A stretch of 64,000 nt of DNA, from positions 1-64,000 of the IMG/VR virus record IMGVR_UViG_3300002835_000043. One strand, given 5' to 3'. The notes below the pieces were generated by a model. That model searched no databases and was not told the DNA's origin. It saw nothing but the letters and a program-made list of their open reading frames with translations. A program made the translations under genes and the position numbers. The DNA comes from a virus. Every line of letters starts with the position of its first letter. Positions within the stretch are counted from its first letter, which is position 1. Below, one piece after another: positions 5,741 through 25,300 of this stretch.

Positions 5741-5761
5741 AGTTACTTTGGAGATTTCACT

Positions 5762-6064: not shown

Positions 6065-6075
6065 CCTCGTTTCAA

Positions 6076-6718: not shown

Positions 6719-6863
6719 GAAACCCGGTCGAGACAAGCGCCGCAAGCGTCTACAGAACAAGAAGCGTGACCAATGGAAGCGCATGAAGCAGATGGGACGA
6801 AAGGACTACGGTCCTCCGAAGGATGTGAAGCCTTTGGATCGACCTGAAGAACCCCAAATCTGA
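6711..6863 (+). CDS. Small, very basic protein (50 aa)
   Basis: ATG 6711 within the end of the previous gene. The first 30 residues are packed with K and R (RDKRRKRLQNKKRDQWKR), followed by a proline-rich end. Likely RNA- or DNA-binding by charge. A strong terminator follows 22 bases after the stop, marking the end of the GC-rich block. Confidence 0.6.
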   Translation: MFEKPGRDKRRKRLQNKKRDQWKRMKQMGRKDYGPPKDVKPLDRPEEPQI

Positions 6864-6884
6864 AAATCCCGAATCATGGGTCTG

Positions 6885-6919
6885 CCCCACATATGCCTAA
6901 CCGTATATGTGGGGTTTTT
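6885..6919 (+). terminator. Strong terminator closing the GC-rich block
   Basis: CCCCACATAT (6885-6894) pairs with ATATGTGGGG (6905-6914), loop GCCTAACCGT, then TTTTT. The stem also contains a CATATG site (6890-6895), the hexamer repeated in the 4.9-5.3 kb control region. Confidence 0.85.
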
Positions 6920-7433
6920 CTTTATTTGAACTTATGCACTTGTCACAGATCGAGCAGCTCGAGCACGCCCAGGACCAAATCGAGCAGCCATACATTTCAA
7001 ATATTAGAACTCAAATTATTCTATCAAATTGTAAAGGAAAATCAAGCATATTTGAAGCATTTGGTAGCATCAGAGACACCAGAGGAATACCTGGGACATC
7101 TATAGATGGCGGAATGGGTTCAAGTTCACATATTGAATTTCCCTGTATTCGCTCGCTATCTGCTTATATGGGCGAGTCTCAAACTGAAAAAAACAGTGTT
7201 TCGGCGTATGGGTGGGGGGTGAGCCTCTGCCGTATTAAGCACCCATCCTCTCTTTCTCTTTAACCCCTCAATTTTAAAAATACCCCCCTACCCCCAAATC
7301 CTATAAACTTTTCAAATAGGATCCCCCGTATCCAAATTTAAAAAACACACCCCCACCCCCAAAACTGTAAATACTTTCTATTAGGATCCCCCACTCCCTA
7401 ATTTACTAAATACACATAAAAGGAACTATACCC
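6920..7433. other. Composition boundary without convincing genes
   Basis: Open frames of 70 and 118 codons begin at 6893 and 6907, but these starts fall inside the terminator and they have mixed composition and no ribosome site, so I do not call them. Between about 6,990 and 7,260 the base composition falls from GC-rich to AT-rich. The end of the stretch carries tandem C-run repeats (7271-7415) and then the ribosome site AAAGGAACT of the 7434 gene. Confidence 0.55.
7271..7415. repeat. Imperfect tandem repeats with C-runs (about 64-bp period)
   Basis: Unit A (7271-7327) and unit B (7335-7392) both run A/T-rich start, then two C-runs, an A/T stretch and TAGGATCCCCC. A third partial unit starts at 7400 (AATTTACTAAATACAC). 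The 64-65 base spacing and the conserved order argue against chance. They sit just ahead of the first AT-rich gene, so may be control elements or traces of a joining event. Confidence 0.6.
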
Positions 7434-7853
7434 ATGAATATTAACGAATCATCCCTTAGAGAATATGTAAATAATGTCGTAAAGAGCATTTTAGAAGATG
7501 TTTTTGATAGTCCTACATCAGCAGCAGCAAGTAGAGCAAATGTCAAAAAAGCAACAAAGGTATTGGGAGCAAGTTCACCACATACAAAGTCATTAACTAA
7601 ACTTCACAATACTATGAAGAAAAGTCCTTATCACTATGGTATCGCTGATGATGAATTAGAAAGAAGAGAAATTGAAAAGTATGATGATTTGGATTCGCGT
7701 GATGTTCCTGCTTCAAAACCTACACTAACTCCAATGAAAGGAAAGGGATACGATGGATATGATGCTATATTTGGAGGTTCTAAGAAAGGTATAAACCTTG
7801 GAGTTATTAAGAAGGCTGCAGCAGCAATTAGTAAAAAGACTAAAGGTAAATAA
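7434..7853 (+). CDS. Putative structural / head-internal protein (139 aa)
   Basis: ATG 7434 follows AAAGGAACTATACCC. The N terminus has an amphipathic helix (SLREYVNNVVKSILEDVF) resembling the helical module in other small proteins of this region (8956, 11102, 26798). The rest is disordered and becomes basic, with glycine and lysine-rich patches and a K-rich end. By analogy with T4-like internal proteins this could be packaged in the capsid, but no family is recognised. Confidence 0.7.
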   Translation: MNINESSLREYVNNVVKSILEDVFDSPTSAAASRANVKKATKVLGASSPHTKSLTKLHNTMKKSPYHYGIADDELERREIEKYDDLDSRDVPASKPTLTPMKGKGYDGYDAIFGGSKKGINLGVIKKAAAAISKKTKGK

Positions 7854-7874
7854 AGACATTTAAAGAAATAAAAA

Positions 7875-7900
7875 ACCCCGCTTCGGCGGGGTTCTTTTTT
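7875..7900. terminator. Bidirectional terminator
   Basis: ACCCCGC (7875-7881), loop TTCG, GCGGGGT (7886-7892), followed by a T-rich run on the plus strand and preceded by an A-run serving the minus strand. It separates the convergent genes ending at 7853 (+) and 7930 (-). Confidence 0.9.
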
Positions 7901-7929
7901 ATAATTTAAAGAGTATTACTTACTCTCCT

Positions 7930-8322
7930 CTATTTCTTCTTTTTCATTCTTGCTGCTGCTGCTCCAGCACCAGTTACCGCACCGAGTCCAGCACCAGTAC
8001 TCAATCCTGCTGCTGCCGCTGCTGTTGCTTTCTTTGCTGCTTCTACTTTACCTACCATTGTCTTTTCGGGTTCTTTGAATGTGTGCTCTACTGATCCTGC
8101 TGCACTACCGGCTGCACCACCAAGACCTGCACCAAGACCTGCTGCTAAGAGTGCTGCTCCGAGTTTCTTTTTGATATTTTCTGTTAACTCTTCTTCATCT
8201 AGAAGATCTACTAAAATGTTCTCTAGAAGTTCTGAGTACTCTTGTTCTGACTTTAGTTCTTCTGAGAGTCTATGTGACTCGTTTAGGTAGTAATTGTATT
8301 TTTGTGCTAATGGATTGTTCAT
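7930..8322 (-). CDS. Putative head-internal protein with duplicated N-terminal module (130 aa)
   Basis: The start is taken as the ATG read from 8322, which has AAAGGAAAAC upstream; an upstream in-frame start lacks one. Residues 1-45 (MNNPLAQKYNYYLNESHRL onward) nearly duplicate the N terminus of the protein at 11102-11500, also at DNA level. L-N-E followed by S at residues 14-17 fits the L/I-x-E site cut by T4-type prohead proteases. The middle is glycine- and alanine-rich and hydrophobic (residues 60-85), and the end is basic (RMKKKK). Probably packaged in the prohead; inference. Confidence 0.7.
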   Translation of the reverse strand: MNNPLAQKYNYYLNESHRLSEELKSEQEYSELLENILVDLLDEEELTENIKKKLGAALLAAGLGAGLGGAAGSAAGSVEHTFKEPEKTMVGKVEAAKKATAAAAAGLSTGAGLGAVTGAGAAAARMKKKK

Positions 8323-13778: not shown

Positions 13779-13794
13779 TTAAAGGAGATTGGGT

Positions 13795-14325
13795 ATGAGT
13801 GATCAGATGAATACTATGGACTTTGAAACATTTGTTAAAACTAATCAAGTTTTCCCCAATCAACCAATTAAAGAACAACAAACAAATCAGGAAGATAATA
13901 AAATTTCTACTCCCACTAGTAGAGGAAATGTTGTTATACCAACTAAAATTGAAATAAAGCAATCTTTAATTCACAATCAAGGTGTTTTCGCAAAAGAACA
14001 AATATTAGAAGGTGAACTTATTGAGATTGCTCCTCTTCTTAAATTAGAATGGAGAATGCAATACCAACACGATCCAATAATTAAAAGTTACATTTGGCCA
14101 AATTTAAGTTGTAATTGTAGAGACTGCAAAGTTCATAGTCCTATAGCATACATGCCAATGGGATATGCTCCATTATACAACCATTCAGAAACACCAAATG
14201 TTTCTTTAAAATTTAATTGGGCAGAACAAACAGTATCATTTAAAGCAATGAAAAATATTGAAATTGGAGAAGAACTTTTTATTCATTATTTAATAAAAAG
14301 TTGGAATCAAAATGATAAAAAATAA
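13795..14325 (+). CDS. SET-domain protein, putative protein-lysine methyltransferase (176 aa)
   Basis: ATG 13795 with AAGGAG eight bases upstream. After a 45-residue disordered, Q-rich start come SET elements: G-V-F-A-K-E-Q-I-L-E-G-E (63-74), N-H-S-x2-P-N (129-135), and I-x-I-G-E-E-L-x3-Y (155-165), the SAM-binding and knot motifs with the final tyrosine. C106-N-C-R-D-C111 may bind zinc. SET enzymes methylate lysines; in phages the substrate is unknown and could be a host or virion protein. Coupled to the next gene, which starts 14 bases before its stop. Confidence 0.8.
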   Translation: MSDQMNTMDFETFVKTNQVFPNQPIKEQQTNQEDNKISTPTSRGNVVIPTKIEIKQSLIHNQGVFAKEQILEGELIEIAPLLKLEWRMQYQHDPIIKSYIWPNLSCNCRDCKVHSPIAYMPMGYAPLYNHSETPNVSLKFNWAEQTVSFKAMKNIEIGEELFIHYLIKSWNQNDKK

Positions 14326-15080: not shown

Positions 15081-16139
15081 GTGAAGATTGAAGATGATGT
15101 AAAACTTGATTTTGCAGATGTTTTGATTCGTCCAAAGCGAAGTAACCTTGATAGTCGTAGCAAGGTTGATGTCGAACGCACATTTAAATTTAAACTACCC
15201 AGTGGTGAATTTGTATGGAGAGGTGTCCCTATTGTAGCCGCTAATATGGATACAGTTGGTACATTTGAAATGGCAAACTCTCTTGCAGATTACGGTGCTA
15301 TGTGTGCTATTCACAAGTATTACTCTGAAGAAGATTGGGGTCGTGAAGCAAGTTCATGGTTGAGAAAACATTCTGGTCTTTGTGGATTGATTTATACAAT
15401 GGGAATGGGAAACGATTCCACAACATTAACAGAAATTCAAAAAGCAGAAAAGATATTAAATGCACATAAGCATGTTCGGTTTATTTGTCTTGATGTTGCA
15501 AATGGATATACTGAAAAGTTTGTAAATTATGTTAAAACCATTCGTGGTTTATTTCCAGATCATGTTATTATTGCAGGTAATGTTGTTACCCGTGAGATGA
15601 CTGAAGCACTGATTCTTTCTGGTGCAAACATCATCAAGGCAGGAATTGGACCAGGATCTGTCTGCACCACTCGTAAGGTTGCTGGTGTGGGTTATCCTCA
15701 ACTCTCCTGCATCATGGAGTGTGCTGATGCAGCACATGGGCTTGGTGGTTATGTGCTATCAGATGGTGGTTGTACTTGTCCGGGTGATGTAGCAAAGGCA
15801 TTTGGTGCTGGTGCAGACTTTATTATGATTGGTGGTATGTTTGCAGGAACTGATGAGTCTGCAGGACAAGAAACAGAGAACGGTAAAGAGTTCTATGGTA
15901 TGTCATCTGCTACAGCAATGGAAAAACATTCCGGTGGTGTTGCTACTTATCGTGCAGCAGAGGGTAAGAAGGTATTTGTTAAAAAGACTGGACCAGTTGC
16001 AAATATTATGCAACAGATTCTTGGTGGTGTCCGTTCTGCTTGCACATATGTTGGTGCAGCAAGACTTAAGGATCTGTCAAAGTGTACAACTTTTATTCGT
16101 GTCAATCGTCAGTTAAATAACATATTTCAAGAAAATTAA
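15081..16139 (+). CDS. guaC: GMP reductase
   Basis: The 352-residue protein has the IMPDH/GMP reductase barrel. The active-site loop [13 protein letters not shown] (186-198, catalytic C195) followed by G-V-G-Y-P-Q is diagnostic of GMP reductase, and S-D-G-G-C (about 227) and I-G-G-M-F-A-G line the phosphate site. There is no CBS insertion, and length fits GuaC. It converts GMP and NADPH to IMP and ammonia. With the PurA-like enzyme at 16942 it forms a route from guanylate to adenylate. The start is GTG or ATG near 15081 with AAAGGAAAC upstream. Confidence 0.92.
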
Positions 16140-16197
16140 AATTTGAATATTTGCATTTGACCCTGAAAAAAAATCTTATAAAACTTTACTTTTTTCC

Positions 16198-16225
16198 TTG
16201 CGGAGTCCGATAAAAGTCGTATACT
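16198..16225 (+). promoter_or_regulatory. Sigma70-like promoter ahead of the tRNA region
   Basis: TTGCGG (16198-16203) and TATACT (16220-16225), 16-base spacer. TATACT lies in the palindrome CGTATACTATACG, which could be an operator. It precedes the structured leader and the first tRNAs. Confidence 0.65.
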
Positions 16226-16516
16226 ATACGAGTCAGAGAAAATAACAAAGGAAACACACTATGAAGCACTTTGATAATAATATTATGTGGTTACATTAAA
16301 ATTACTTTTATTGTTTATAGTATTATATTATTAAATAAGGTTTGTCGGTATGCACCGAGAGCAGATCCGAGCGAGACAGAAATGGTTTACGGAAAACCAC
16401 TGCAGTCTCTCGACTACAAAACCGTTTCACTGGTTGGTTTACGGTTCCTGATACGAAGGTGATGAATGCCCGTAAGGCAGTAGTAGTTACCGGATACAAC
16501 CAAAACCGTCTTTTAT
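16226..16516 (+). ncRNA. Candidate structured RNA leader before the tRNAs
   Basis: Only a 12-codon frame (16261-16299, after AAAGGAAACACACT) is plausible here. From 16345 to about 16505 the sequence is clearly richer in GC than its surroundings and folds: TCGGT/ACCGA (16345-16358); TGGTTT/AAACCA (16383-16399) enclosed by GAGAC/GTCTC; and GCC/GGC near 16469. GGTTTACGG and AAAACCG each occur twice. This may be a small RNA, a processed leader or a tRNA-processing signal. No known family recognised. Confidence 0.35.
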
Positions 16517-16589
16517 GCCCTCTTAGCTCAGTTGGTAGAGCAGTTGACTTTTAATCAATAGGTCGTAGGTTCAATTCCTACAGGGGGCA
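16517..16589 (+). tRNA. tRNA-Lys (UUU)
   Basis: Acceptor stem GCCCTCT/AGGGGGC, D arm TAGCTCAGTTGGTAGAGCA, anticodon loop CTTTTAA (anticodon TTT), T arm GTAGG-TTCAATT-CCTAC, discriminator A. CCA is not encoded (A followed by CTT). It reads AAA/AAG, abundant in the phage genes. Confidence 0.95.
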
Positions 16590-16594
16590 CTTTT

Positions 16595-16667
16595 GGGATG
16601 GTAGACCAACGGCAGAGTCGGGACACTCAAAATGTCCATAGTGTGGGTTCGAATCCCACCCGTCCTA
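16595..16667 (+). tRNA. tRNA-Leu (CAA), short variable loop
   Basis: Acceptor GGGATGG/CCGTCCT, anticodon stem GGACA/TGTCC, loop CTCAAAA (anticodon CAA), T arm GTGGG/CCCAC, discriminator A. The variable region is only about five bases (ATAGT), whereas bacterial leucine tRNAs normally have a long arm. CCA not encoded. Confidence 0.85.
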
Positions 16668-16682
16668 CTCAGGAGAATAATA

Positions 16683-16949
16683 ATGATTGACAATCCGTAT
16701 AATGAACTGAACGATCATACCTTTCTGATATATCTTGCACAGAATGATTACATGATTGATGGTCACTTTCTTCCTGAAGGCAAACGACTGATGGAGATTG
16801 CTAATAAATTACAGGAGAGAGCAATGTTTATTTTTGGTGACGGTAAATCTGAACCAATCATAGACTTCAAAGCAGAAAAATACAAGAAGTCTCAGGAAGC
16901 AATGGATAGACTCGCACAACTTGATGAGGAGTTGGGATTAAATGATTGA
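16683..16949 (+). CDS. Hypothetical helical protein (88 aa)
   Basis: ATG 16683 has AGGAGAATAATA directly upstream; the open frame extends back into the tRNA and is rejected. The product is acidic and mostly helical (FKAEKYKKSQEAMDRLAQLD), with a small N-terminal region rich in N and D. It overlaps the purA start by eight bases, so the two are co-translated; perhaps a small partner of that enzyme, but this is only context. Confidence 0.7.
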   Translation: MIDNPYNELNDHTFLIYLAQNDYMIDGHFLPEGKRLMEIANKLQERAMFIFGDGKSEPIIDFKAEKYKKSQEAMDRLAQLDEELGLND

Positions 16950-17934
16950 TTATGTAGATGTGATATATGGTTTAGCATGGGGCGATGAAGGCAAGGGAAA
17001 GATTTCTAATGCTCTTGCTCCAAAATATGATTATGTTTGTCGTTGGAACGGTGGACCAAATGCTGGTCACACTGTTTATGTAAATGGACAAAAATTTAAA
17101 ACTCATATTATTCCATCCGGTATCTTTGCAGGTAAGAAGTGTGTAATTGGACCGGGATGTGTAATTAACCCAGATAAATTCTTTGAAGAGATCCGTGGAC
17201 TTCGTGCAGCAGGATTTGATACTTCTCTTATCAAAATTCATCCAAATGCACATATTATCACCGAAGAACATATTGAGTGGGACAAGAAGAATCTTGGTCA
17301 CTTAGGAACAACTTCTCAAGGAATTGCTCCTTGCTATTCAGATAAGATGTTGCGTAGAGGTAGGAGAGCAAAGGAATATTTTATTTCGGAGTGGTTGTGG
17401 GATGGTGAACTATCAGGTAGAGTGCTTTGTGAAGGAGCACAAAGTGTTTGGCTTGATATTGATCATGGTGATTATCCATTCGTAACTAGTAGTTCAACAA
17501 TGCCATACTCTGCATGTTCTCTTGGTTTCTCTCCGAAGAAGATTCGCAGATTGATTGGTGTTGCAAAGGCATATGATACAAAGAGTGGTAAAGATCCACT
17601 CTTCCCCGAAACATTATGGAATGATCCCGTACTGAATCGAATTATTGAGGAGGGTCAAGAATTTGGTTCTACTACGGGTCGTAAACGATTGGTGAATTGG
17701 TTGAACCTTGATAAGTTGAAGAAGTCTATCGTCTTATCGGGTTGTACTGAACTCATCATAAATAAGTGTGATGTTCTCAAGAAGGTTGGAGAATTTAAGG
17801 TCATTCATGGAAATGAATACATGAATTGTACAAGTTTTGCTATGATGTCTGCTTATATTCAAGATACTTTAATGTTTAGTAGTGGTTCGGATTTACATGA
17901 AATTACTTTCTCTGGTGATAAGGAAAGTATTTGA
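16942..17934 (+). CDS. purA: Adenylosuccinate synthetase (PurA-like, short form)
   Basis: W-G-D-E-G-K-G-K (13-20) is the GTP-binding loop with catalytic D15, and N-A-G-H-T (40-44) supplies the catalytic His43; G-A-Q-S-V-W-L-D and T-T-G-R-K-R are also conserved. It joins IMP and aspartate using GTP, giving adenylosuccinate. At 330 residues it is about 100 shorter than typical bacterial PurA and is nearer the length of archaeal PurA and phage PurZ. PurZ enzymes, which make the 2-aminoadenine precursor, usually replace the catalytic Asp; here it is kept, favouring a PurA (or a PurZ0-like intermediate) role. Neighbouring guaC supplies IMP. Confidence 0.88.
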   Translation: MIDYVDVIYGLAWGDEGKGKISNALAPKYDYVCRWNGGPNAGHTVYVNGQKFKTHIIPSGIFAGKKCVIGPGCVINPDKFFEEIRGLRAAGFDTSLIKIHPNAHIITEEHIEWDKKNLGHLGTTSQGIAPCYSDKMLRRGRRAKEYFISEWLWDGELSGRVLCEGAQSVWLDIDHGDYPFVTSSSTMPYSACSLGFSPKKIRRLIGVAKAYDTKSGKDPLFPETLWNDPVLNRIIEEGQEFGSTTGRKRLVNWLNLDKLKKSIVLSGCTELIINKCDVLKKVGEFKVIHGNEYMNCTSFAMMSAYIQDTLMFSSGSDLHEITFSGDKESI

Positions 17935-17935
17935 T

Positions 17936-18006
17936 TCCTTTGTGGTGAAACGGTATCACAGGAGACTTTGGATCTCTTTTTCCTAGTTCGAATCTAGGCA
18001 AAGGAA
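17936..18006 (+). tRNA. tRNA-Gln (UUG)
   Basis: Acceptor TCCTTTG/CAAAGGA, D arm TGGTGAAACGGTATCACA, anticodon loop CTTTGGA (anticodon TTG), T arm CCTAG/CTAGG, discriminator A. It starts two bases after the purA stop. CCA not encoded. Confidence 0.95.
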
Positions 18007-18010
18007 TTAT

Positions 18011-18083
18011 TCTTGAATAGCTCAGTTGGTAGAGCAGTGAGCTGTTAACTCACGGGTCACTGGTTCGAGTCCAGTTTCAAGAG
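18011..18083 (+). tRNA. tRNA-Asn (GUU)
   Basis: Acceptor TCTTGAA/TTCAAGA, anticodon stem GTGAG/CTCAC with loop CTGTTAA (anticodon GTT), T arm ACTGG/CCAGT, discriminator G. CCA not encoded. Confidence 0.95.
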
Positions 18084-18086
18084 TTT

Positions 18087-18158
18087 GCCATGTTAGCACA
18101 GTGGTAGTGCAGTGCTTTTGTAAAGCACAGGTCATCGGTTCGAATCCGATACATGGCT
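18087..18158 (+). tRNA. tRNA-Thr (UGU)
   Basis: Acceptor GCCATGT/ACATGGC, anticodon stem GTGCT/AGCAC with loop TTTGTAA (anticodon TGT), T arm ATCGG/CCGAT, discriminator T. It reads ACA, a very common codon in the late genes. Confidence 0.95.
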
Positions 18159-18162
18159 TTGT

Positions 18163-18789
18163 ATGTTAAATATTAATATTCCACATTTTTATTGTTACAT
18201 GAGAAAAGAACAAATGTATCAACATAAAAATCATGTTGGTGAATTTGTAAAAGTTACTGTATTTGGAGCACAATCTAATCCAGATAGAGCATTACTTTTT
18301 CATGTGATGACTGATGATGGGTTAGTTAGAAGTAGAGTTCCAATTCATATGTTATGCCACAAAGAAAATGCTCCTAATATTCAATTAGATTATTTACAAT
18401 TATGGGATTGTTTTTCTATAAATTGCACAAATATTGTTTATGACTATTTAAAAGGTGCAAGAGCAAAAATAATTCTAAAAGATAAAAAAGAACTTTGGGG
18501 TAATTATATGATGACATTTGATTGGTATGATAATTCATATAGTGACGAACCAACACAATACAAATGTTTACATATGGTTGAATTGGATAATGGTTGTTAC
18601 GCTTTACAACCAAATAATAGAATATATTGGAAACATATGTCTTTTGTTACAAAACCATTTCCACAAAATCCTGATTATAAAGTTGATCATAAAAATTTTA
18701 GATGTGAAGGAACAAGTGATAGATGGATTATTGAAGGAGAAGATGACAGTTATTATTATGATTTGAAAGAGGATAAAGATGGGCGGTAA
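18163..18789 (+). CDS. Hypothetical protein, beta-rich (208 aa)
   Basis: ATG 18163 follows the tRNA-Thr almost directly and lacks a clear ribosome site; an internal start near residue 18 is possible. The product is aromatic-rich, with many W, Y and F in strand-like segments (VKVTVFGAQ, KCLHMVELDNGCYAL) and an acidic end. It resembles conserved proteins of unknown function in T4-like phages, but I cannot name a family. It overlaps the next small gene. Confidence 0.65.
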   Translation: MLNINIPHFYCYMRKEQMYQHKNHVGEFVKVTVFGAQSNPDRALLFHVMTDDGLVRSRVPIHMLCHKENAPNIQLDYLQLWDCFSINCTNIVYDYLKGARAKIILKDKKELWGNYMMTFDWYDNSYSDEPTQYKCLHMVELDNGCYALQPNNRIYWKHMSFVTKPFPQNPDYKVDHKNFRCEGTSDRWIIEGEDDSYYYDLKEDKDGR

Positions 18790-18958
18790 ACATTCAGCAG
18801 GTAAAGGTGATACATATAGACCCGTAGATTGGGAACAATATTCAAAAAATTGGGATGATATTTTTGGAAAAAAGAAAGGTAAATTAAAAAATGAGCAATG
18901 TACAACTAATCGGACTGGTAAGCGGAGAACAAATAATCGCAAAGATCGAACTAATTGA
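18779..18958 (+). CDS. Small conserved phage protein of GKGDxYRPV type (59 aa)
   Basis: ATG 18779 lies in the end of the previous gene. The N-terminal 38 residues (H-S-A-G-K-G-D-T-Y-R-P-V then D-W-E-Q-Y and N-W-D-D-I-F-G-K) match a short protein found widely in large phages, function unknown. Relatives usually end shortly after the F-G-K-K; here the frame continues for about 20 basic residues that overlap the next gene by 68 bases, so the true function may lie only in the first 40 residues. Confidence 0.65.
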   Translation: MGGKHSAGKGDTYRPVDWEQYSKNWDDIFGKKKGKLKNEQCTTNRTGKRRTNNRKDRTN

Positions 18959-19202
18959 AAATGTATATTCAATTAAAAATCCAGCAATTATTGTTCCAGT
19001 TGGTAAAGGAGAACTTGCATTAGCCCCTTGGTTGCCGTATACTACGGTAGATCAAACAGGAGTTACGATCAATAAGGAGCGTGTTCTTTTTGTTCTTACT
19101 CCACAACCAGAACTAGCAAATAATTACAATGAAAATTTTGGTAGTGGTCTAATCATTCCAGATAAGACAGTATCAGCACCAAAGTTGTCATTAGTTGAAT
19201 GA
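18891..19202 (+). CDS. Small beta-rich protein, possibly Sm-like (103 aa)
   Basis: Start ATG 18891 with AAATTAAAAA ahead. It shows S-G-E-Q-I-I-A-K-I-E-L-I-E-N-V-Y-S-I-K-N-P-A-I-I-V-P, then L-A-P-W-L-P-Y-T and a strand R-V-L-F-V-L-T. This pattern, early strands with G-E-x-I-x-A, resembles small Sm-like proteins reported from phages of the cyanophage type. Sm-like rings bind U- or A-rich RNA, which would fit a tRNA-rich region. Assignment is from pattern only. Confidence 0.6.
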   Translation: MSNVQLIGLVSGEQIIAKIELIENVYSIKNPAIIVPVGKGELALAPWLPYTTVDQTGVTINKERVLFVLTPQPELANNYNENFGSGLIIPDKTVSAPKLSLVE

Positions 19203-19208
19203 CATCAT

Positions 19209-19282
19209 GCGCTCGTAGCTCAGTTGGATAGAGCAGATGCCTTCTAAGCATCAGGTCGCAGGTTCGAATCTTGCCGAGCGCG
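19209..19282 (+). tRNA. tRNA-Arg (UCU)
   Basis: Acceptor GCGCTCG/CGAGCGC, anticodon stem GATGC/GCATC with loop CTTCTAA (anticodon TCT), T arm GCAGG/CTTGC, discriminator G. It reads AGA, by far the favoured arginine codon in the AT-rich genes. Confidence 0.95.
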
Positions 19283-19297
19283 TTTAAGGAGTTTATT

Positions 19298-19534
19298 ATG
19301 AATAGTATGGATATTGTTGAAAGACTTAAAGTTGATATTGAGATGTTAAGTATGAGTCCTGATGAAAAAGAGAGACTAATTTCAACTACATTAGAGATGG
19401 CTCTGAATGAAATTCAGCATCTTAGAAAGAAAAATTCAGATAGCGATTATCTTTCTTCATATTTTACTGAATGGCATGATAAAAAGAATGTTAAGAAAAA
19501 TACAATCACCAATATTGATGTTGGAGAGATTTGA
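19298..19534 (+). CDS. Hypothetical helical protein (78 aa)
   Basis: ATG 19298 has AAGGAGTTTATT upstream; the frame extends back into the tRNA and the longer form is rejected. Helical and amphipathic (IVERLKVDIEMLSMSPDEK, then LEMALNEIQHLRKK), it may form a dimeric coiled coil. The end is polar. Not recognised. Its stop is followed after two bases by the deaminase-fold gene. Confidence 0.65.
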   Translation: MNSMDIVERLKVDIEMLSMSPDEKERLISTTLEMALNEIQHLRKKNSDSDYLSSYFTEWHDKKNVKKNTITNIDVGEI

Positions 19535-19536
19535 TC

Positions 19537-19908
19537 ATGTCTGTTTTGGATGAATTAATTTCTGATGCATATCCAATTTGCTTGGAAATGAATCGTCAGA
19601 AGAAGCATGTTTCTTTTGTTCTTTATAAGAATCGTGTTGTTTCTGTTGGTAGAAATGTTTTTAAAACACATCCTCTTGCAAAAGAATATGGATATCAGTT
19701 TAATGAAATGCATTCTGAACTTGATGCATTCCGTAAAATTCCATATAATTTTCGTAGTAAGAAGTTGACTCTTGTAAATGTTAGGTATAATAAGTTTGGG
19801 AAACTACGAATGTCAAAACCATGTGAGCATTGTGCTCCTTGGTGTCAGGAAGTTTTTCATGAAATTTATTACACGACCGATGATGGTGTCGTGAGAATGG
19901 AGTACTAA
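19537..19908 (+). CDS. Cytidine/deoxycytidylate-deaminase-fold protein (123 aa)
   Basis: ATG 19537 is preferred to a start at 19531. Residues H59-S-E61 and P95-C96-x2-C99 form the zinc-binding and proton-relay motifs (H-x-E and P-C-x2-C) of the cytidine deaminase superfamily, with the usual 34-residue spacing. Additional C103 lies near. Members deaminate cytidine, dCMP, or adenosine 34 in tRNA (TadA). Its place among tRNA genes, and a tRNA-Ser with A34 at 25004, makes a tRNA role worth testing, but dCMP deaminase is the more usual phage enzyme. Substrate unknown. Confidence 0.8.
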   Translation: MSVLDELISDAYPICLEMNRQKKHVSFVLYKNRVVSVGRNVFKTHPLAKEYGYQFNEMHSELDAFRKIPYNFRSKKLTLVNVRYNKFGKLRMSKPCEHCAPWCQEVFHEIYYTTDDGVVRMEY

Positions 19909-20183
19909 TGTATCGTCTTCATATTGATATTCCAATCAATGCTTCAGAAGAGAAAGCACTTAAGATTTCTCAAGAAATTATTAATTTTGCATTTGATAAT
20001 TTTCAATCTCACGCACTTCTAATGTCTCATGATATTGAAAGTGTAAATTATCGTCTTGGAAATGATTATGATCGTCAGAAGTCTAATTATTTTTCAAAAA
20101 ATGAAAATGGTCATGTAAATAATAAGAAGAGCAAGATTGTTATCAAAACTTCTGAGAATTCTGTTGACTCTGACCAAGAATAA
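19908..20183 (+). CDS. Hypothetical protein (91 aa)
   Basis: The ATG overlaps the deaminase stop (TAATG). The first 55 residues look like a compact alpha/beta unit (RLHIDIPINASEEKALKIS), the remainder is disordered, rich in K, N and S. Proximity suggests co-expression with the deaminase. Not recognised. Confidence 0.6.
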   Translation: MYRLHIDIPINASEEKALKISQEIINFAFDNFQSHALLMSHDIESVNYRLGNDYDRQKSNYFSKNENGHVNNKKSKIVIKTSENSVDSDQE

Positions 20184-20199
20184 GTTATATTACTGATAT

Positions 20200-20271
20200 G
20201 GGATGCATGTGTCGGGTGGCACAGGGTCGCTTATAACGACCTACCGCAGAGTTCGAGTCTCTGGCATCCTA
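20200..20271 (+). tRNA. tRNA-Ile (UAU)
   Basis: Acceptor GGGATGC/GCATCCT (first pair G-U), anticodon stem GGTCG/CGACC with loop CTTATAA (anticodon TAT), T arm CAGAG/CTCTG, discriminator A. A tRNA reading AUA directly through U34 is uncommon in bacteria, which normally use a CAU anticodon with lysidine. CCA not encoded. Confidence 0.92.
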
Positions 20272-20274
20272 CTT

Positions 20275-20835
20275 ATGACAGAAACGCGAAACATTATTGA
20301 TCATTATCATTATTGGAAGCACGAAGCAATTCTTGCGGACCTAGATAAGCGTAGGCATAATTTTACTGTGCTTTGCAGTAATTTGTACAATGATTTTAAT
20401 ATTGCAACGGTGATCAGAAATGCGAATGCCTTTCTTGCAAAGGAGATCATTCTATATGGAAGCAAGCAATATGATAGGCGCGGCACCGTTGGTACTCATA
20501 ATTATAATCGTTTTGTTCATTGTAGGGATGAGCAACAACTCGGATTGAAAATTGAGAACATGATTCGTCAGCACGGTACACTTCGTATCGTTGGTATTGA
20601 TAATGTTCGAAATGCTCGTCCAATTGAAGATTATACTTGGCCAACTAATGAGCATGTCCTTATGGTTTTTGGTCAAGAACAAGTTGGAATTCCACAAGAA
20701 CTTCTTGACAGGTGTGATGATATTTTGTATATTACTCAGTATGGATCTGTTAGAAGTTTGAATGTTGGTTGTGCTTCATCCGTTGCAATGTATGATTATT
20801 GTCGCAAGGTTGAAGCAGGTGTTTTGGCCCCATAG
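20275..20835 (+). CDS. SpoU (TrmH/TrmL) family RNA 2'-O-methyltransferase (186 aa)
   Basis: ATG 20275 lies just after the tRNA-Ile; the open frame extends back into it. SpoU motifs are present: N42-x5-R48-N-A (motif 1), F-G-Q-E-Q-V-G-I-P-Q-E-L-L (132-144, motif 2) and S161-L-N-V-x2-A-S-x-A-M-Y-D-Y (motif 3), forming the trefoil-knot SAM site. The enzyme should methylate a ribose 2'-OH of tRNA or rRNA. TrmL acts on position 34 of tRNA-Leu CAA and UAA, and both of these are encoded by this phage, so a TrmL-like role is plausible. Its 3' end overlaps the tRNA-Glu by ten bases. Confidence 0.88.
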   Translation: MTETRNIIDHYHYWKHEAILADLDKRRHNFTVLCSNLYNDFNIATVIRNANAFLAKEIILYGSKQYDRRGTVGTHNYNRFVHCRDEQQLGLKIENMIRQHGTLRIVGIDNVRNARPIEDYTWPTNEHVLMVFGQEQVGIPQELLDRCDDILYITQYGSVRSLNVGCASSVAMYDYCRKVEAGVLAP

Positions 20836-20898
20836 ATTAACTGGCTAAATTCCCGCCCTTTCAAGGCGGTCATCCGGGTTCGAGTCCCGGTGGGGTCA
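20826..20898 (+). tRNA. tRNA-Glu (UUC)
   Basis: Acceptor GGCCCCA/TGGGGTC, anticodon stem CCGCC/GGCGG with loop CTTTCAA (anticodon TTC), T arm CCGGG/CCCGG, discriminator A. Its first ten bases are also the end of the SpoU coding region, including the stop codon. Confidence 0.95.
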
Positions 20899-20914
20899 CT
20901 TTAGGATTATAATT

Positions 20915-21376
20915 ATGGGATTTACATCTACATTTTTTGGTCAAGGTCAATTTCCATACACTACCTCATATGAAGGATCTACTTATGTCACACAGGCATA
21001 TACAAATCCTCCAGAATATAAATCTTCACTTTCCATGACTACACAGTTTTCAAATGCAATTAATGGGAATACGGTTGCCCTTGCAGAATATAATAGTACT
21101 TTGTTTACTGGAGAAGCAGTTGGTCTTTGGATTTATAGATTATATTTTGATGGTCAATTAGTTGGTATATATCAAATGTGTGATCAACAATTTTCATTCC
21201 CAGTGACATTTGATCGTGTTGAAGGGTTTTGTATGGGTGTGCCACTCACTCCTGCTATCCCATATCGTGGTACTCCTGAACCTGAGCCATCGCCACCGAT
21301 TCCATCACCAGCGTCTATTGCTATTTTGATTTGTTACACATTTTTTTCTCTACGAAAGAACCCTCGCAATGCATAA
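20915..21376 (+). CDS. Hypothetical protein with P-x-P / hydrophobic / basic C terminus (153 aa)
   Basis: Good ribosome spacing (TTAGGATTATAATT before ATG 20915). The body is aromatic, T/S/G-rich and strand-like, as in virion surface proteins. The end reads P-E-P-E-P-S-P-P-I-P-S-P-A-S, a hydrophobic stretch (IAILICYTFF) and L-R-K-N, which resembles a PEP-CTERM sorting signal. There is no N-terminal signal peptide, which PEP-CTERM proteins need, so surface anchoring is uncertain. It overlaps the next gene, which has a similar C terminus. Confidence 0.65.
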   Translation: MGFTSTFFGQGQFPYTTSYEGSTYVTQAYTNPPEYKSSLSMTTQFSNAINGNTVALAEYNSTLFTGEAVGLWIYRLYFDGQLVGIYQMCDQQFSFPVTFDRVEGFCMGVPLTPAIPYRGTPEPEPSPPIPSPASIAILICYTFFSLRKNPRNA

Positions 21377-21902
21377 TTCATTACTAGTCTCTACCGTGCT
21401 TACTCTTGCCGCAACGAATGTTTCACAAGCCGCGTTAGTTTCGATTTCACAAATTGTGACCAACAACACCTTGACCACTCAAACTTATGATTTTTCGGCT
21501 TGGAGTGGAATGGGTTCCTCAACGACCCCTGCCTATATGCGAGGTTCAATTAGTATTACTCTTAGTGATTTTAATCGTGATGGTGCAATGCTTTCCTCGG
21601 ACGGTCTTTACCTTGCACAAGTTAACTCGGTGTTAGTGAAAACTATGCCTAATACTCCGTTTACTCTGACTGCTCCTGCTCGCAGTGGTAATTCATATAC
21701 CAATAGTTTTGGTTGGGAATATCTTACAAGTTCACTCTCATCGTCTGATTCTATTGAATTGCGATTGAATTTCCGTTTAACTCCTGGTGATCAGGTCGCT
21801 ATCGCAGGAACTTTTGAAGTTGCTTCTGTCCCTGCACCTTCATCTTTTATGTTGATTGGATGTGCAGGAATTGCTGCACTGTTTGGAAAAAGAAATAAAT
21901 GA
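21369..21902 (+). CDS. Secreted protein with PEP-CTERM-like sorting signal (177 aa)
   Basis: Residues 1-21 form a signal peptide (LLVSTVLTLAATNVSQA). The body is a Thr/Ser-rich beta domain as in many PEP-CTERM proteins. The C terminus V-P-A-P-S-S-F-M-L-I-G-C-A-G-I-A-A-L-F-G then K-R-N-K has the P-x-P-S-S, glycine-rich hydrophobic helix and basic end of exosortase substrates. In bacteria this is cut and the protein is anchored or released. In a phage it suggests cargo made for the host envelope, or a gene taken from the host. It overlaps the methyltransferase start. Confidence 0.75.
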   Translation: MHNSLLVSTVLTLAATNVSQAALVSISQIVTNNTLTTQTYDFSAWSGMGSSTTPAYMRGSISITLSDFNRDGAMLSSDGLYLAQVNSVLVKTMPNTPFTLTAPARSGNSYTNSFGWEYLTSSLSSSDSIELRLNFRLTPGDQVAIAGTFEVASVPAPSSFMLIGCAGIAALFGKRNK

Positions 21903-22993
21903 AAGTAGGATCACTATTTGCAGGTATTGGTGGTTTTGATCTCGGTTTTGAACGAGCAGGATTTGAACTTGCTTGGTCAGTCGAAATTGATCCACATTGT
22001 AGAAAAGTTCTACAAAAGCATTTTCCAAATGCTAAAATTTATTCAGATATCAAGCAAGTAAAGGTTGAAGAACTTGAAAAGGTTGATATCATCTGTGGTG
22101 GATTTCCTTGTCAGGATTTATCGGTAGCAGGTAAGCGTAAAGGTCTTGCTGGAGAAAGGTCAGGATTATTTTATGAAGCAATGCGACTTGTACGGGGAAT
22201 CAATCCCCAGTTCGTCATACTCGAAAATGTGCCAGGATTGTTGTCGAGCAATAAAGGAAGGGATTTCGCAGTCCTCCTCGCTGAAATGGACAAAGGGTGG
22301 GATTGTCAGGAAATCGCATGGAGAGTTCTTGACAGCCAATTCTTCGGAGTGCCCCAACGACGCAAGCGCATCTTTATTGTCGCAAGTTCTCGAATCGGGG
22401 GTGCCGAGCAAGTATTGGCTCTCTCCGAAAGCATGTCAGGGGATTCTACGAAGAGCAAAGACAAGAGGAAAGAACTTACCTCCAGTATTGGAGGAAACAT
22501 TGAAGAGACAAAGTGGTGGGATGGTGGACAACTCTCAGACACCTTAACATCTTCAAGTTTATTTCGTCAACAAGCAGAACCGGATAAGCGTAGAATGTCT
22601 GCAGTATTGGAGCCTATTCCTTACGATTTATTCCAGATTACAGCACCTATCAATAAGCAAACAAGAGTACCGGGTGATCCGTGTCACACTCTTGCTGCTT
22701 CTAATGCAGTTCATGCTGCTATGGTAATGGCAGTTCGTACAGCACAAACAGGAGCAAATGGTCATGGTGTTGCAGAAGAAGTTTCTCACACATTAGATCT
22801 TGCAAATGGTCAAGCAGTTGCTTATAATCTAACAATTCGAAGATTAACACCTTTGGAATGTGAGAGACTACAGGGATTTCCTGATAATTGGACTGATGGA
22901 CAAGCAGATACTACAAGATATAAGCAACTAGGAAATGCAGTTACCGTGAATGTAATTGAATGGTTAGCAAATAATCTGAAAGGAATAATATGA
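21899..22993 (+). CDS. DNA (cytosine-5) methyltransferase (364 aa)
   Basis: All key C5-MTase motifs appear in order: F-A-G-I-G-G-F-D-L-G-F (7-17, motif I), G-G-F-P-C-Q (67-72, catalytic C71), E109-N-V (motif VI), Q-R-R-K-R-I-F (motif VIII), and G-N-A-V near residue 346 (motif X). It transfers methyl from SAM to C5 of cytosine. The target-recognition region spans about 190-300 and its specificity cannot be read. No restriction endonuclease is beside it, so it probably protects phage DNA from host restriction. ATGA overlap with the previous gene. Confidence 0.93.
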   Translation: MKVGSLFAGIGGFDLGFERAGFELAWSVEIDPHCRKVLQKHFPNAKIYSDIKQVKVEELEKVDIICGGFPCQDLSVAGKRKGLAGERSGLFYEAMRLVRGINPQFVILENVPGLLSSNKGRDFAVLLAEMDKGWDCQEIAWRVLDSQFFGVPQRRKRIFIVASSRIGGAEQVLALSESMSGDSTKSKDKRKELTSSIGGNIEETKWWDGGQLSDTLTSSSLFRQQAEPDKRRMSAVLEPIPYDLFQITAPINKQTRVPGDPCHTLAASNAVHAAMVMAVRTAQTGANGHGVAEEVSHTLDLANGQAVAYNLTIRRLTPLECERLQGFPDNWTDGQADTTRYKQLGNAVTVNVIEWLANNLKGII

Positions 22994-23289
22994 GTGGTAA
23001 AGTAATTTGGAACTATAGAATTATTATGGATGATACTACAGAAGATCCACATGATGCTTGGTATGCTATTCATGAAGTATATTATCTTGATGGGGAACCA
23101 ATTGATCATACCGTAAGTCAGTCAAGTGTTTATGGTGATAGTATTGAAGAGTTGAATAAGTCTCTAGTAAAGATGCGAGAAGCATTCAATCACCCTATCT
23201 TGAAGAAGTCTGATTTTCCACCAATGGATAACTATCGTCGTGAACACTGGATGAAAGCAAGAGAAATGGGAGAATCTTATGAAGGATAA
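22990..23289 (+). CDS. Hypothetical protein (99 aa)
   Basis: ATG overlaps the methyltransferase stop. The first half has W-N-Y-R-I-I-M-D and A-W-Y-A-I-H-E-V-Y-Y-L-D-G, strands of a small alpha/beta fold that occurs in conserved phage proteins of unknown role; the second half is helical with K/E/M residues. Overlaps the next gene by 11 bases. Confidence 0.65.
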   Translation: MSGKVIWNYRIIMDDTTEDPHDAWYAIHEVYYLDGEPIDHTVSQSSVYGDSIEELNKSLVKMREAFNHPILKKSDFPPMDNYRREHWMKAREMGESYEG

Positions 23290-23605
23290 ATTTGAACCAG
23301 ATGCATTTGTTCGTAAGATCATTCTAGATGATCATGAAATTGAAAGTTTGCAAAAAACACTTTATTTTCTAAAGGGTGTCGAACTTGCAACACCAAATTC
23401 ACAATATATGCACAGTGTTATTTCAGAAGTAATTGAGAGTGTTGATTATGTTGTTAGACAGTATTGGAATGCACCAATCGCAACTGAGCAAGATTTTAAA
23501 GATCGAAAAGCACGATATGAAGAACTTGATCTAATTCCAACAGATGAACTTCTGCGTGCTACTCGTCAGTATATGAACAGAATGAAGAAAGGAAAAAACA
23601 AATGA
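23279..23605 (+). CDS. Hypothetical helical protein (108 aa)
   Basis: Start within the end of the previous gene. The product is largely helical (HEIESLQKTLYFLKGVELA, SEVIESVDYVVRQYW) and ends in a basic segment (NRMKKGKNK). The stop overlaps the following ATG (ATGA). Not recognised. Confidence 0.65.
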   Translation: MKDKFEPDAFVRKIILDDHEIESLQKTLYFLKGVELATPNSQYMHSVISEVIESVDYVVRQYWNAPIATEQDFKDRKARYEELDLIPTDELLRATRQYMNRMKKGKNK

Positions 23606-23766
23606 TCGATAAGAAGCATGAACTCCGTCGTAGACGCAAGCGTAAGTATGAATCTCGCCGTCGTAGAAAGCAAGAGCAACTTCTAAATGCAAAGAAGGAA
23701 ACTCTTCGTAAGTTGGATGCTATTGGTCGTTGTCCTGCTTGGATCAAGGCTGAGAAGGGTATTTGA
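23602..23766 (+). CDS. Small, extremely basic protein (54 aa)
   Basis: Starts in the stop of the upstream gene. About 23 of the first 40 residues are K or R (for example LRRRRKRKYESRRRRKQEQ), and the end has C-P-A-W-I-K. The charge implies RNA or DNA binding; in size and composition it recalls ribosomal proteins of the bS21 type, found in some phages, but the match is not firm. It precedes tRNA-Cys by six bases. Confidence 0.6.
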   Translation: MIDKKHELRRRRKRKYESRRRRKQEQLLNAKKETLRKLDAIGRCPAWIKAEKGI

Positions 23767-23772
23767 TTTACT

Positions 23773-23846
23773 GGTCGGGTACTCAAGTGGCTTAAGAGAA
23801 CGGATTGCAAATCCGTGATTCGTGGGTTCAAATCCCACCTCGACCT
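23773..23846 (+). tRNA. tRNA-Cys (GCA)
   Basis: Acceptor GGTCGGG/CTCGACC, anticodon stem ACGGA/TCCGT with loop TTGCAAA (anticodon GCA), T arm GTGGG/CCCAC, discriminator T. CCA not encoded. Confidence 0.93.
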
Positions 23847-23849
23847 TGC

Positions 23850-23920
23850 GCGTGTATGATGTAGTGGTAACATATTAGATTTCCAATCTTATCTCGTGAG
23901 TTCGAATCTCACTACACGCT
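23850..23920 (+). tRNA. tRNA-Gly (UCC)
   Basis: Acceptor GCGTGTA/TACACGC, loop TTTCCAA (anticodon TCC) on a stem with one mismatch, T arm GTGAG/CTCAC, discriminator T. The D arm TGATGTAGTGGTAACATA is typical of glycine tRNAs. Confidence 0.92.
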
Positions 23921-23921
23921 T

Positions 23922-23929
23922 TATAAATA
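23922..23929 (+). promoter_or_regulatory. TATAAATA box between tRNA-Gly and tmRNA
   Basis: Exact T4 late consensus placed one base after tRNA-Gly and directly ahead of the tmRNA acceptor piece. It may give the tmRNA its own late transcription, or be part of the spacer in an AT-rich genome. Confidence 0.5.
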
Positions 23930-24195
23930 ATCTTTGATATCGTTGATCTTCAATGAAAGACAATCAGGACAGGGGTTCGATTCCCCTCGGCTCCACTTGA
24001 CGGGGCTGTACAGGTATTCGACTGGTGTTTAGTAAGGAAAAGGGAGATATTCGGGACAGGCAACGAGTCTCGTTAAAAAATAGTTGTAAACAATAATTGC
24101 TAACGAACTAGCAATGGCTGCTTGAAGCAGTGGGGAATGATTCACCCGCATCTGAACGAATCACGATTTGCAGTCAGAAATGATTGCAAATCATT
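23930..24195 (+). ncRNA. ssrA: Circularly permuted (two-piece) tmRNA
   Basis: The acceptor piece comes first: P2 strand AAAGACAATCAG (23956-23967), T arm AGGGG-TTCGATT-CCCCT (23971-23987), acceptor strand CGGCTCC (23988-23994) and discriminator A. After only six bases the coding piece begins with GGGGCTG (24002-24008), which pairs with that acceptor strand, then the conserved GGTATTCGAC and CTGGTGTTT (24022-24030), which pairs with the P2 strand. A reading frame at 24099-24125 gives A-N-E-L-A-M-A-A and TGA, like a proteolysis tag. A hairpin (24165-24192) probably ends it. tmRNA frees stalled ribosomes with SmpB. Outer ends are approximate. Confidence 0.88.
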
Positions 24196-24207
24196 TTGGA
24201 GGACTTT

Positions 24208-24363
24208 ATGAATAATGAACAATTACTTGCAATGTGTGATGAATTAAAAAATATTAGAGCAAATATTGCTCATCAACTTTCAAGAATTTCTGCAATTGAA
24301 AGAGTAGTAACAGATATTCTTTCTCCAAAGGAAGAAGTAAAAAATGAAGAACCTCAAAATTAA
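24208..24363 (+). CDS. Small coiled-coil protein (51 aa)
   Basis: ATG 24208 follows TTTTGGAGGACTTT, a strong ribosome site just after the tmRNA. The product (residues 4-40) is one amphipathic helix with heptads (LLAMCDELKNIRANIAHQL) and an acidic end. It overlaps the lipoprotein gene by 20 bases. Unknown function. Confidence 0.65.
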   Translation: MNNEQLLAMCDELKNIRANIAHQLSRISAIERVVTDILSPKEEVKNEEPQN

Positions 24364-24640
24364 ATTTTGCATTTTAATGTTTTGTTTACTTTCTGGTTGT
24401 ACTCTAAAGAGAGTTTACTATCCTGCTTATGTTGTTGGTTATGACATGTATGGAAATCCAATTTATTATTATGATTATTATTATGTTAATTTGGATGATC
24501 CTAATAGTGCAAAAAATGCACAGCCATATATTATTCAACAGCCACCAGTTCAACAAATTGTAGTTCAACAAACACCACAACAAACTCAACAGACTGAAAA
24601 GAATAGTGGTAAATCTTGGGATTGTAATTGCAATCATTGA
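24344..24640 (+). CDS. Lipoprotein, tyrosine- and glutamine-rich (98 aa)
   Basis: Residues 1-19 are a type II signal peptide with lipobox L-L-S-G-C (cysteine 19), so the mature protein should be lipid-anchored in the host membrane. Then come a Tyr-rich segment (about residues 24-50), a Q/T-rich low-complexity stretch and a short end with two cysteines. Phage lipoproteins often block superinfection or act in lysis (Rz1). The absence of a companion Rz-like gene on the same stretch weighs against Rz1. Confidence 0.8.
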   Translation: MKNLKIKFCILMFCLLSGCTLKRVYYPAYVVGYDMYGNPIYYYDYYYVNLDDPNSAKNAQPYIIQQPPVQQIVVQQTPQQTQQTEKNSGKSWDCNCNH

Positions 24641-24665
24641 AGTTTATGGTATAGTACTAATACAT

Positions 24666-24739
24666 GGGACGGTAGACCAATCGGCAGAGTCAATAGACTT
24701 AAAATCTGTGTAGTGTGGGTTCGAGTCCCACCCGTCCTA
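24666..24739 (+). tRNA. tRNA-Leu (UAA), short variable loop
   Basis: Acceptor GGGACGG/CCGTCCT, loop CTTAAAA (anticodon TAA), T arm GTGGG/CCCAC, discriminator A. The overall sequence is close to the tRNA-Leu (CAA) at 16595, and again the variable region is short (GTAGT). It reads UUA, the main leucine codon of the late genes. Confidence 0.88.
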
Positions 24740-24763
24740 CTTAACTAAATAGATTACTGTACT

Positions 24764-24836
24764 GGGCAAATAGCTCAATTGGGAGAGCGTCGCCTTTGCA
24801 AGGCGAATGTTGCGGGTTCGAGTCCCACTTTGTCCA
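24764..24836 (+). tRNA. tRNA-Ala (UGC)
   Basis: Acceptor GGGCAAA/TTTGTCC, anticodon stem TCGCC/GGCGA with loop TTTGCAA (anticodon TGC), discriminator A. The T stem has one C-A mismatch (GCGGG/CCCAC). Confidence 0.92.
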
Positions 24837-24841
24837 CTCTT

Positions 24842-24914
24842 GGTCCCTTAACTCAACGGCTAGAGTGTTACCTTTACACGGTAAAAGTTGTAGGTTCGAA
24901 TCCTACAGGGATCA
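24842..24914 (+). tRNA. tRNA-Val (UAC)
   Basis: Acceptor GGTCCCT/AGGGATC, anticodon stem TTACC/GGTAA with loop TTTACAC (anticodon TAC), T arm GTAGG/CCTAC, discriminator A. Confidence 0.95.
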
Positions 24915-24918
24915 CTTC

Positions 24919-25000
24919 GCGTCGATACCAAAGCGGCAACTGGGACAGACTGTAAATCTGTTGTCTTTAGACTCCGTAGGTTCGAGTCCTACTCGGCGCA
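24919..25000 (+). tRNA. tRNA-Tyr (GUA)
   Basis: Acceptor GCGTCGA/TCGGCGC, anticodon stem ACAGA/TCTGT with loop CTGTAAA (anticodon GTA), an enlarged variable arm (TGTCTTTAGACTCC) as expected for tyrosine, T arm GTAGG/CCTAC, discriminator A. Confidence 0.95.
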
Positions 25001-25003
25001 CTT

Positions 25004-25088
25004 GGACAGATGGCAGAGTGGTCTATTGCAGCAGTTTACTAAACTGCAGAGGTGAATGCCTCCGAGGGTTCGAATCCTTCTCTGTCCG
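25004..25088 (+). tRNA. tRNA-Ser, anticodon ACU
   Basis: Acceptor GGACAGA/TCTGTCC, anticodon stem GCAGT/ACTGC with loop TTACTAA, which places A-C-T at 34-36. Long variable arm (GAGG/GCCTC hairpin) and discriminator G fit serine. Bacteria normally use GCU for AGC/AGU; A34 here is unusual. Alignment with the neighbouring tRNA-Ser (UGA) supports the reading. Confidence 0.85.
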
Positions 25089-25094
25089 CATTTT

Positions 25095-25182
25095 GGGTAG
25101 GTGGCAGAGTGGTCTAACGCGGTTGTCTTGAAAACAACAGTAGGTGAATAGCCTACCGGGGGTTCGAATCCCTCTCTACCCT
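25095..25182 (+). tRNA. tRNA-Ser (UGA)
   Basis: Acceptor GGGTAGG/TCTACCC, anticodon stem GTTGT/ACAAC with loop CTTGAAA (anticodon TGA), long variable arm (GTAGG/CCTAC type), discriminator T. Confidence 0.93.
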
Positions 25183-25199
25183 TTCACTAGATACTTCAT

Positions 25200-25273
25200 C
25201 GGGGTGTGGCTCAGCTTGGTAGAGCGTCTGCTTTGGGAGCAGAAAGTCGTAGGTTCAAATCCTATCACCCCGA
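25200..25273 (+). tRNA. tRNA-Pro (UGG)
   Basis: Acceptor CGGGGTG/CACCCCG, anticodon stem TCTGC/GCAGA with loop TTTGGGA (anticodon TGG), T arm GTAGG/CCTAT, discriminator A followed by CTT. Confidence 0.95.
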
Positions 25274-25300
25274 CTTATACATACACAAAACGGAGGAAAT

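Follow-up and report, generated by a model that had tools for sequence, protein, structure and literature searches.

The phage record IMGVR_UViG_3300002835_000043 of the IMG/VR database carries, in the 64,000-base stretch at its positions 1 to 64,000 that was analysed here as a whole (hereafter the window), a gene of GMP reductase (GuaC) and a gene of a short adenylosuccinate synthetase of the PurA type, which probably act together as a purine-interconversion module supplying adenine nucleotides in infection, as judged from comparative sequence analysis. Our verdict is that the gene pair is real, conserved and mechanistically coherent. The original prediction, made from the letters of the stretch alone, had the two enzymes lead from guanosine monophosphate (GMP) via inosine monophosphate (IMP) to adenylosuccinate, with PurB of the host left to finish adenosine monophosphate (AMP), and had called their genes almost neighbours. 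Both open reading frames (ORFs) were indeed found where it had placed them, with matches to PF00478 and PF00709, respectively (Table 1), and the spacing of 802 bases agrees with its wording. The chemistry it put forward is likely right, being backed by the residues, the fold and the conserved pairing described below.

Purine genes of phages are commonly ascribed one of two roles, boosting de novo synthesis or making 2-aminoadenine DNA. The pair analysed here points to a GMP-to-AMP interconversion route shared by many environmental phages; the two genes overlap in one lineage, and one partner is swapped in others. The tuning of purine balance, perhaps even of base composition, by phages becomes a directly testable idea. 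No paper describing GuaC and PurA as a pair in phages was found in the open-licence literature of PubMed Central. Separately, a deep-ecotype pelagimyophage is mentioned as having a gene of GMP reductase (PMC7029224), and a transcript from the viral fraction of Lake Baikal is reported to resemble the adenylosuccinate synthetase of Pithovirus (PMC9611531).

Identification of the GMP Reductase

The sole domain of the window GuaC is that shared by IMP dehydrogenase (IMPDH) and GMP reductase (GMPR) (PF00478, E-value 2.9e-73). The protein, which is 58.6% identical to GuaC of Escherichia coli, scored 514.5 bits with the NCBIfam GMP reductase model PRK05096 (cut-off 397) and 487.1 bits, i.e., slightly below the cut-off of 492.15, with TIGR01305. 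The nearest solved chains were GMP reductases 1 and 2 (E-values 1e-123 to 1e-128), with IMPDH at about 1e-54. The identity of an IMPDH was considered and rejected, since the IMPDH model gave 210.9 bits against a cut-off of 481.5 and the PDB matches favoured GMP reductases. Cys186, Thr188 and Glu289, which are catalytic in GMP reductase (the Cys and the Glu occurring in IMPDH too), are retained in the window protein and in 62/62 close, 6/6 intermediate and 8/8 divergent GuaC rows of the alignment, as counted after dropping the rows not spanning positions 12-325 and with some contigs contributing several loci.

Both genes of the pair are under purifying selection. Among relatives 85-99.9% identical, dN/dS was 0.057-0.098 for guaC (six contigs computed, with dS equal to 0 in one further contig) and 0.034-0.155 for purA (10 contigs).

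A Short PurA with a Modified Substrate Region

The window PurA matched PF00709 with 294.5 bits (cut-off 27, E-value 1.5e-87). Its AlphaFold model (pLDDT 86.8, pTM 0.88) found the best fold match in E. coli PurA (Z 37.5 over 318 residues, root-mean-square deviation (rmsd) 2.2), the scores being Z 33.1 with Pyrococcus PurA and Z 28.6-29.9 with complete PurZ structures. The protein is considerably shorter than E. coli PurA (330 versus 432 amino acids); the main gap corresponds approximately to E. coli residues 155-205, and further losses lie toward the C terminus, where their placement is uncertain.

Twelve active-site positions (D13, K16, N38, H41, T129, R143, Q224, T239, R303, R305, K331 and D333) are identical in 68/68 unique phage PurA rows, to which the 102 initial rows, with several loci per contig, were reduced; rows not spanning query residues 8-320 had been dropped. 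The numbering is that of E. coli PurA, and the roles ascribed to the residues are in part drawn from PMC8342488. Asp13, His41 and Arg303 are catalytic residues, and Lys331 and Asp333 form the GTP-binding (T/N)KxD motif; its presence as NKxD in all of the 68 rows makes the use of GTP by PurA likely.

Two positions of the substrate region depart from this conservation, V273S and L227W each occurring in 67 of the 68 unique rows; the only row lacking V273S is that of the huge phage LR756501. According to PMC8342488, V273 adjoins the ribose 2' position and Arg303 balances the 2'-hydroxyl of IMP. Given this proximity to the ribose, V273S could shift the ribose selectivity either way. The pair might alternatively act on deoxynucleotides, GuaC turning dGMP from degraded host DNA into dIMP and PurA turning dIMP into dAMP-succinate, which would amount to direct recycling of host DNA. 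Such a scheme would fit the replacement of the very residue nearest to the 2' position and the genes of dNMP kinase and dCMP deaminase that neighbour the pair in other lineages (see below); however, the Arg303 that faces the 2'-hydroxyl is kept in 68/68 rows, a Ser at this site might just as well select for a ribonucleotide, and GuaC appears canonical. We regard the deoxynucleotide scheme as unlikely.

Distinction from PurZ

The PurA-like enzyme could in principle be a PurZ, making the precursor of 2-aminoadenine from dGMP for the so-called Z-DNA. This is what the label '2-aminooxy adenylosuccinate synthetase' of PHROG 1211, matched by the window PurA, would imply, and the protein is close to PurZ in length and gives a weak match to the PurZ model of NCBIfam. 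That match (101.7 bits) is nevertheless far from the cut-off of 300. Residue 13 is Asp in all 68 phage PurA rows, which also retain Arg303 and the GTP motif, whereas Ser13 and Lys303 stand in the PurZ rows of phiVC8 and TurboVicky; PMC12884076 reports Ser for 100% of 147 phage PurZ at the position matching Asp13. The PurA tree sets the two PurZ rows apart. The DatZ-type family PF12917 was found in 0/18 records, with the reservation that records may be fragments and that PurZ0 phages use other genes. In addition, GuaC would use up guanine nucleotides rather than spare them. PurZ acts on dGMP (PMC12884076 and PMC8342488). Considering the residues, the score, the tree and the absence of PF12917 in these 18 records, the PurZ identity was rejected, and we see next to no chance of it. 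An enzyme acting on dGMP, which the original prediction had named among the contrary outcomes, is disfavoured by the retained Asp13 and Arg303 and by the lack of PF12917 in the 18 records. The label of PHROG 1211 on phage proteins of the PurA type deserves attention in itself, as automatic annotation may wrongly imply a Z genome.

Pairing and Gene Order in Environmental Phages

The proteins PurA and GuaC were used separately to search IMG/VR, which yielded 93 viral contigs with either gene, many of them short. A GuaC-family gene was present in 37/62 stretches selected by PurA, and PurA was present in 47/54 stretches selected by GuaC; both genes occurred on 60 of the 93 contigs according to blastp of open frames (61 by tblastn). 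The pairing is strong, non-obligatory and beyond chance.

The paired contigs fall into four groups. Group A, to which the window belongs (31 contigs), has GuaC followed by PurA on the same strand with a gap of 184-5371 bases. In group B (18 contigs) the order is PurA then GuaC, and the genes overlap by the four bases ATGA in 17 contigs and by 11 bases in one. The genes lie on opposite strands in group C (three contigs), while in group D (eight contigs) a divergent gene of the GMPR/IMPDH family precedes PurA. The pair of group B is flanked by T7-type primase-helicase (17/18) and DNA polymerase A (18/18), with dNMP kinase (14/18), ThyX (12/18) and a 5'-3' exonuclease nearby, several of these stretches being short; near the pair of group D, dCMP deaminase (7/8) and dNMP kinase (6/8) were found. 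These neighbours, involved in DNA replication and precursor formation, place the pair, as far as gene context can indicate, in the supply of DNA precursors.

It might be argued that the two genes are unrelated passengers of an island of tRNA and metabolic genes, close to each other by chance, as those of the window lie within a tRNA cluster, the gap in A-type contigs reaches 5371 bases, and phages with a single gene exist. Against this, the stop codon of the first gene overlaps the start codon of the second in lineage B, and the pairing persists in groups C and D despite a swap of the partner; we consider chance proximity highly improbable.

Replacement of the GuaC Partner

In the PurA tree, the members of group C cluster in a single clade within the A-type lineage and those of group D in another, the enclosing branches having SH-aLRT values of 94 and 97. 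The GuaC-family proteins paired with PurA in these two groups are placed apart from the A/B GuaC clade and are only 43% (C) and 25% (D) identical to the window GuaC. The trees were built by a quick method, and long-branch joins (D with C) may be misplaced. The partner of group C, with 387.3 bits in the GMP reductase model against the cut-off of 397, is clearly of the GMP reductase type by sequence. Such a replacement appears to be the best evidence for GuaC and PurA working together: a pair that recurs in distant phages, with its first enzyme swapped for another relative, suggests a selected step in the supply of DNA building blocks.

Proposed Role of the Pair

In the proposed route, GuaC would convert GMP to IMP with consumption of NADPH and release of NH3, the short PurA would convert IMP and aspartate to adenylosuccinate at the expense of GTP, and PurB of the host would form AMP, which kinases and ribonucleotide reductase (RNR) could bring to dATP. 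The last step from adenylosuccinate is assigned to the host because a PurB-type lyase (PF00206) was found in 0/19 records, gene absences being weak evidence here, as the records may be fragments. ThyX was found in 12/18 records; matches to PF02867 (RNR) occurred in 9/18 records, with six over the cut-off and a single strong one, and there was none in record G000. Each turn would use up one GMP, the substrate, and one GTP, the energy source, and guanine nucleotides would thereby fall and adenine nucleotides rise. We infer the actual catalysis, the direction of the flux in the infected cell and the benefit to the phage.

GMP is the substrate of GuaC and GTP the energy source of PurA by established enzyme chemistry. 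The route may thus chiefly drain guanine nucleotides, blunting host responses based on GTP or (p)ppGpp, with adenine as a by-product, and the GTP motif NKxD conserved with K331 and D333 in all PurA rows is in line with this. However, the pairs of groups B and D lie among genes of DNA replication and precursors, which fit supply better than signalling, and we hold guanine drainage to be a rather improbable main function.

Several points weigh against the supply of adenine nucleotides by the pair. The window PurA stays under every NCBIfam PurA cut-off (283.8/402, 253.8/395.55, 220.5/445, 190.7/700 and 166.6/368 bits); in view of these scores and of the shortened chain, we file it as a divergent short subfamily of the PurA type rather than under a named equivalog. 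V273S and L227W stand within an otherwise conserved substrate region, and the substrate or the rate of the enzyme may differ. PurA occurs alone on 26/93 contigs and GuaC alone on 7/93. A search of the whole records of 21 PurA-only cases revealed a PF00478 gene in one, about 100 kb distant, and PF00709 was found in 0/7 whole records of GuaC-only cases, three of which are 86-146 kb long. Likewise, the isolates Cr30, XacN1 and RAS14 carry a GuaC-family gene without PurA, and the huge phage LR756501 carries PurA without GuaC. Finally, the partners in the D clade and in record L065 score below all curated cut-offs, and their highest scores are those with IMPDH models; if they were dehydrogenases, they would work in the opposite direction. 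The D partner retains the Cys-x-Thr and Glu positions, and the Arg-Tyr flap motif of IMPDH is absent from the D-clade and L065 partners in the alignments inspected. With this motif lacking, they lean to GMP reductase, which seems a likelier identity for them than IMPDH.

Base Composition and a Deaminase-Like Protein

According to the original prediction, the route would shift purine pools toward adenine in an AT-rich phage whose host may be richer in GC. The stretches bearing the pair range in GC content from 27% (group D) to 49% (some of group A), so AT-rich phages are not its only carriers. The GuaC-bearing isolates Cr30, XacN1 and RAS14 have 37.8, 50.0 and 43.3% GC, respectively, in the stretches examined, and their hosts about 65-67%. 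The resulting gap is suggestive only, these three isolates being devoid of PurA and compared with no control set.

Downstream of the pair, the window encodes a protein of 123 amino acids with a cytidine-deaminase fold (Table 1). Its model (pLDDT 85.3) matched best a plant cytidine deaminase (Z 10.6 over 105 residues, rmsd 2.8), many deaminase types being tied at Z 8-10; PHROG gave a dCMP deaminase at an E-value of 0.0057, Pfam gave no match, and solved structures searched by profile yielded none at an E-value of 1. Because of the tied types and the lack of a structure-profile match, no claim on its substrate is made. Homologues are present on 53/93 (blastp) or 54/93 (tblastn) of the PurA/GuaC contigs, in two phage lineages; by group, the gene was found in 27/32 (A, tblastn), 13/18 (B) and 2/3 (C) cases and in none of group D, where a dCMP deaminase of the ordinary kind is present. 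Its relatives in known phages are distant only, among them one in Cr30 (26%), which also has GuaC. Association with the pair makes the protein a possible third member of the module.

More broadly, and as a tentative proposal that we would not rate as probable, these genes may form a nucleotide-conversion module directed from GC to AT, in which PurA with an interchangeable GMP reductase would turn G into A, and the deaminase-fold protein with ThyX would turn C into T nucleotides; phages would thereby rewrite host nucleotides to their own composition, and V273S/L227W may tune the ribose selectivity. The counts given above for the deaminase-like gene (53-54/93 contigs), the dCMP deaminase of group D (7/8) and ThyX (12/18 records), together with the joint presence of GuaC and a deaminase-like protein in Cr30, lend this proposal partial support.

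Genomic Setting

The source record comprises 118,301 bases with an overall GC content of 34.4%; it lacks end repeats and may be a fragment. The closest matches of its major capsid protein come from T4-like cyanophages, Methylophilales phages and the Pelagibacter phage Mosig (52-54% identity). Two scans of genome contigs for a host, with PurA and GuaC as queries, gave no relative.

The 802 bases between guaC and purA in the window are taken up by two tRNA genes and most of an ORF of 88 amino acids, for which searches of Pfam and PHROG at an E-value of 0.01 gave no match (Table 1). Altogether 17 tRNA genes are clustered at 16517-25274, surrounding the pair. A tmRNA gene lies at 23902-24216, with the tag ANELAMAA according to ARAGORN and a match to permuted tmRNA of Rfam at 23936-24125.

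Table 1. Features of the window in the region of guaC and purA.
Feature	Coordinates	Strand	Remarks
GMP reductase (GuaC type I), 352 amino acids	15081-16139	+	GTG start, preceded by AAAGGAAA
tRNA-Lys (TTT)	16517-16590	+	ARAGORN; Rfam tRNA
tRNA-Leu (CAA)	16595-16668	+	ARAGORN; Rfam tRNA
ORF of 88 amino acids, function unassigned	16683-16949	+	shares 8 bases with the beginning of purA
Short PurA-type adenylosuccinate synthetase, 330 amino acids	16942-17934	+	PF00709
Cytidine-deaminase-fold protein, 123 amino acids	19537-19908	+	fold match; zinc-deaminase motif HSE...PCxxC

Several other traits of the window were observed. A SET-domain protein is encoded at 13789-14325 (PF00856, E-value 1.5e-12). 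The products of the ORFs 20915-21376 and 21369-21902 have C-terminal ends that, by eye, resemble PEP-CTERM sorting signals, which is unusual for a phage; the latter ORF had no match in Pfam, and neither of the two had a match in PHROG. The GC content is 54.5% at 1-4000 and 48% at 4001-8000, versus 24-40% elsewhere, and long ORFs are scarce in 1-8000; this GC-rich part is either a recent acquisition or an assembly artefact. The region 28000-40000 is strongly AT-rich, its GC content falling to 24%, and its ORFs resemble, by eye, genes of sugar-nucleotide metabolism and glycosyltransferases.

Comparison with Known Systems

The window GuaC shares with the bacterial enzyme of E. coli the single IMPDH/GMPR domain, the Cys/Thr/Glu set and more than half of the sequence (58.6% identity), and differs in that its gene is phage-borne and linked to purA. 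A GuaC-family gene is also found, at 36.8% identity, in the low-GC Caulobacter phage Cr30 (37.8% GC in the stretch), which, unlike the window, has no PurA. Like PurZ and PurZ0, the window PurA is a phage-borne homologue of PurA, and it comes near them in length and in fold (Z 28.6-29.9 for complete chains), the difference from PurZ being the Ser13/Lys303 of the two aligned PurZ rows. With bacterial PurA it has in common the fold and all 12 active-site positions examined, while it is distinguished by its length (330/432 amino acids), by the missing stretches at about 155-205 and toward the C terminus, and by V273S and L227W. In length it is similar to the short archaeal PurA of Pyrococcus horikoshii (5k7x, 337-340 amino acids; Z 33.1 over 303 residues); in sequence and fold, however, it is nearer to bacterial PurA.

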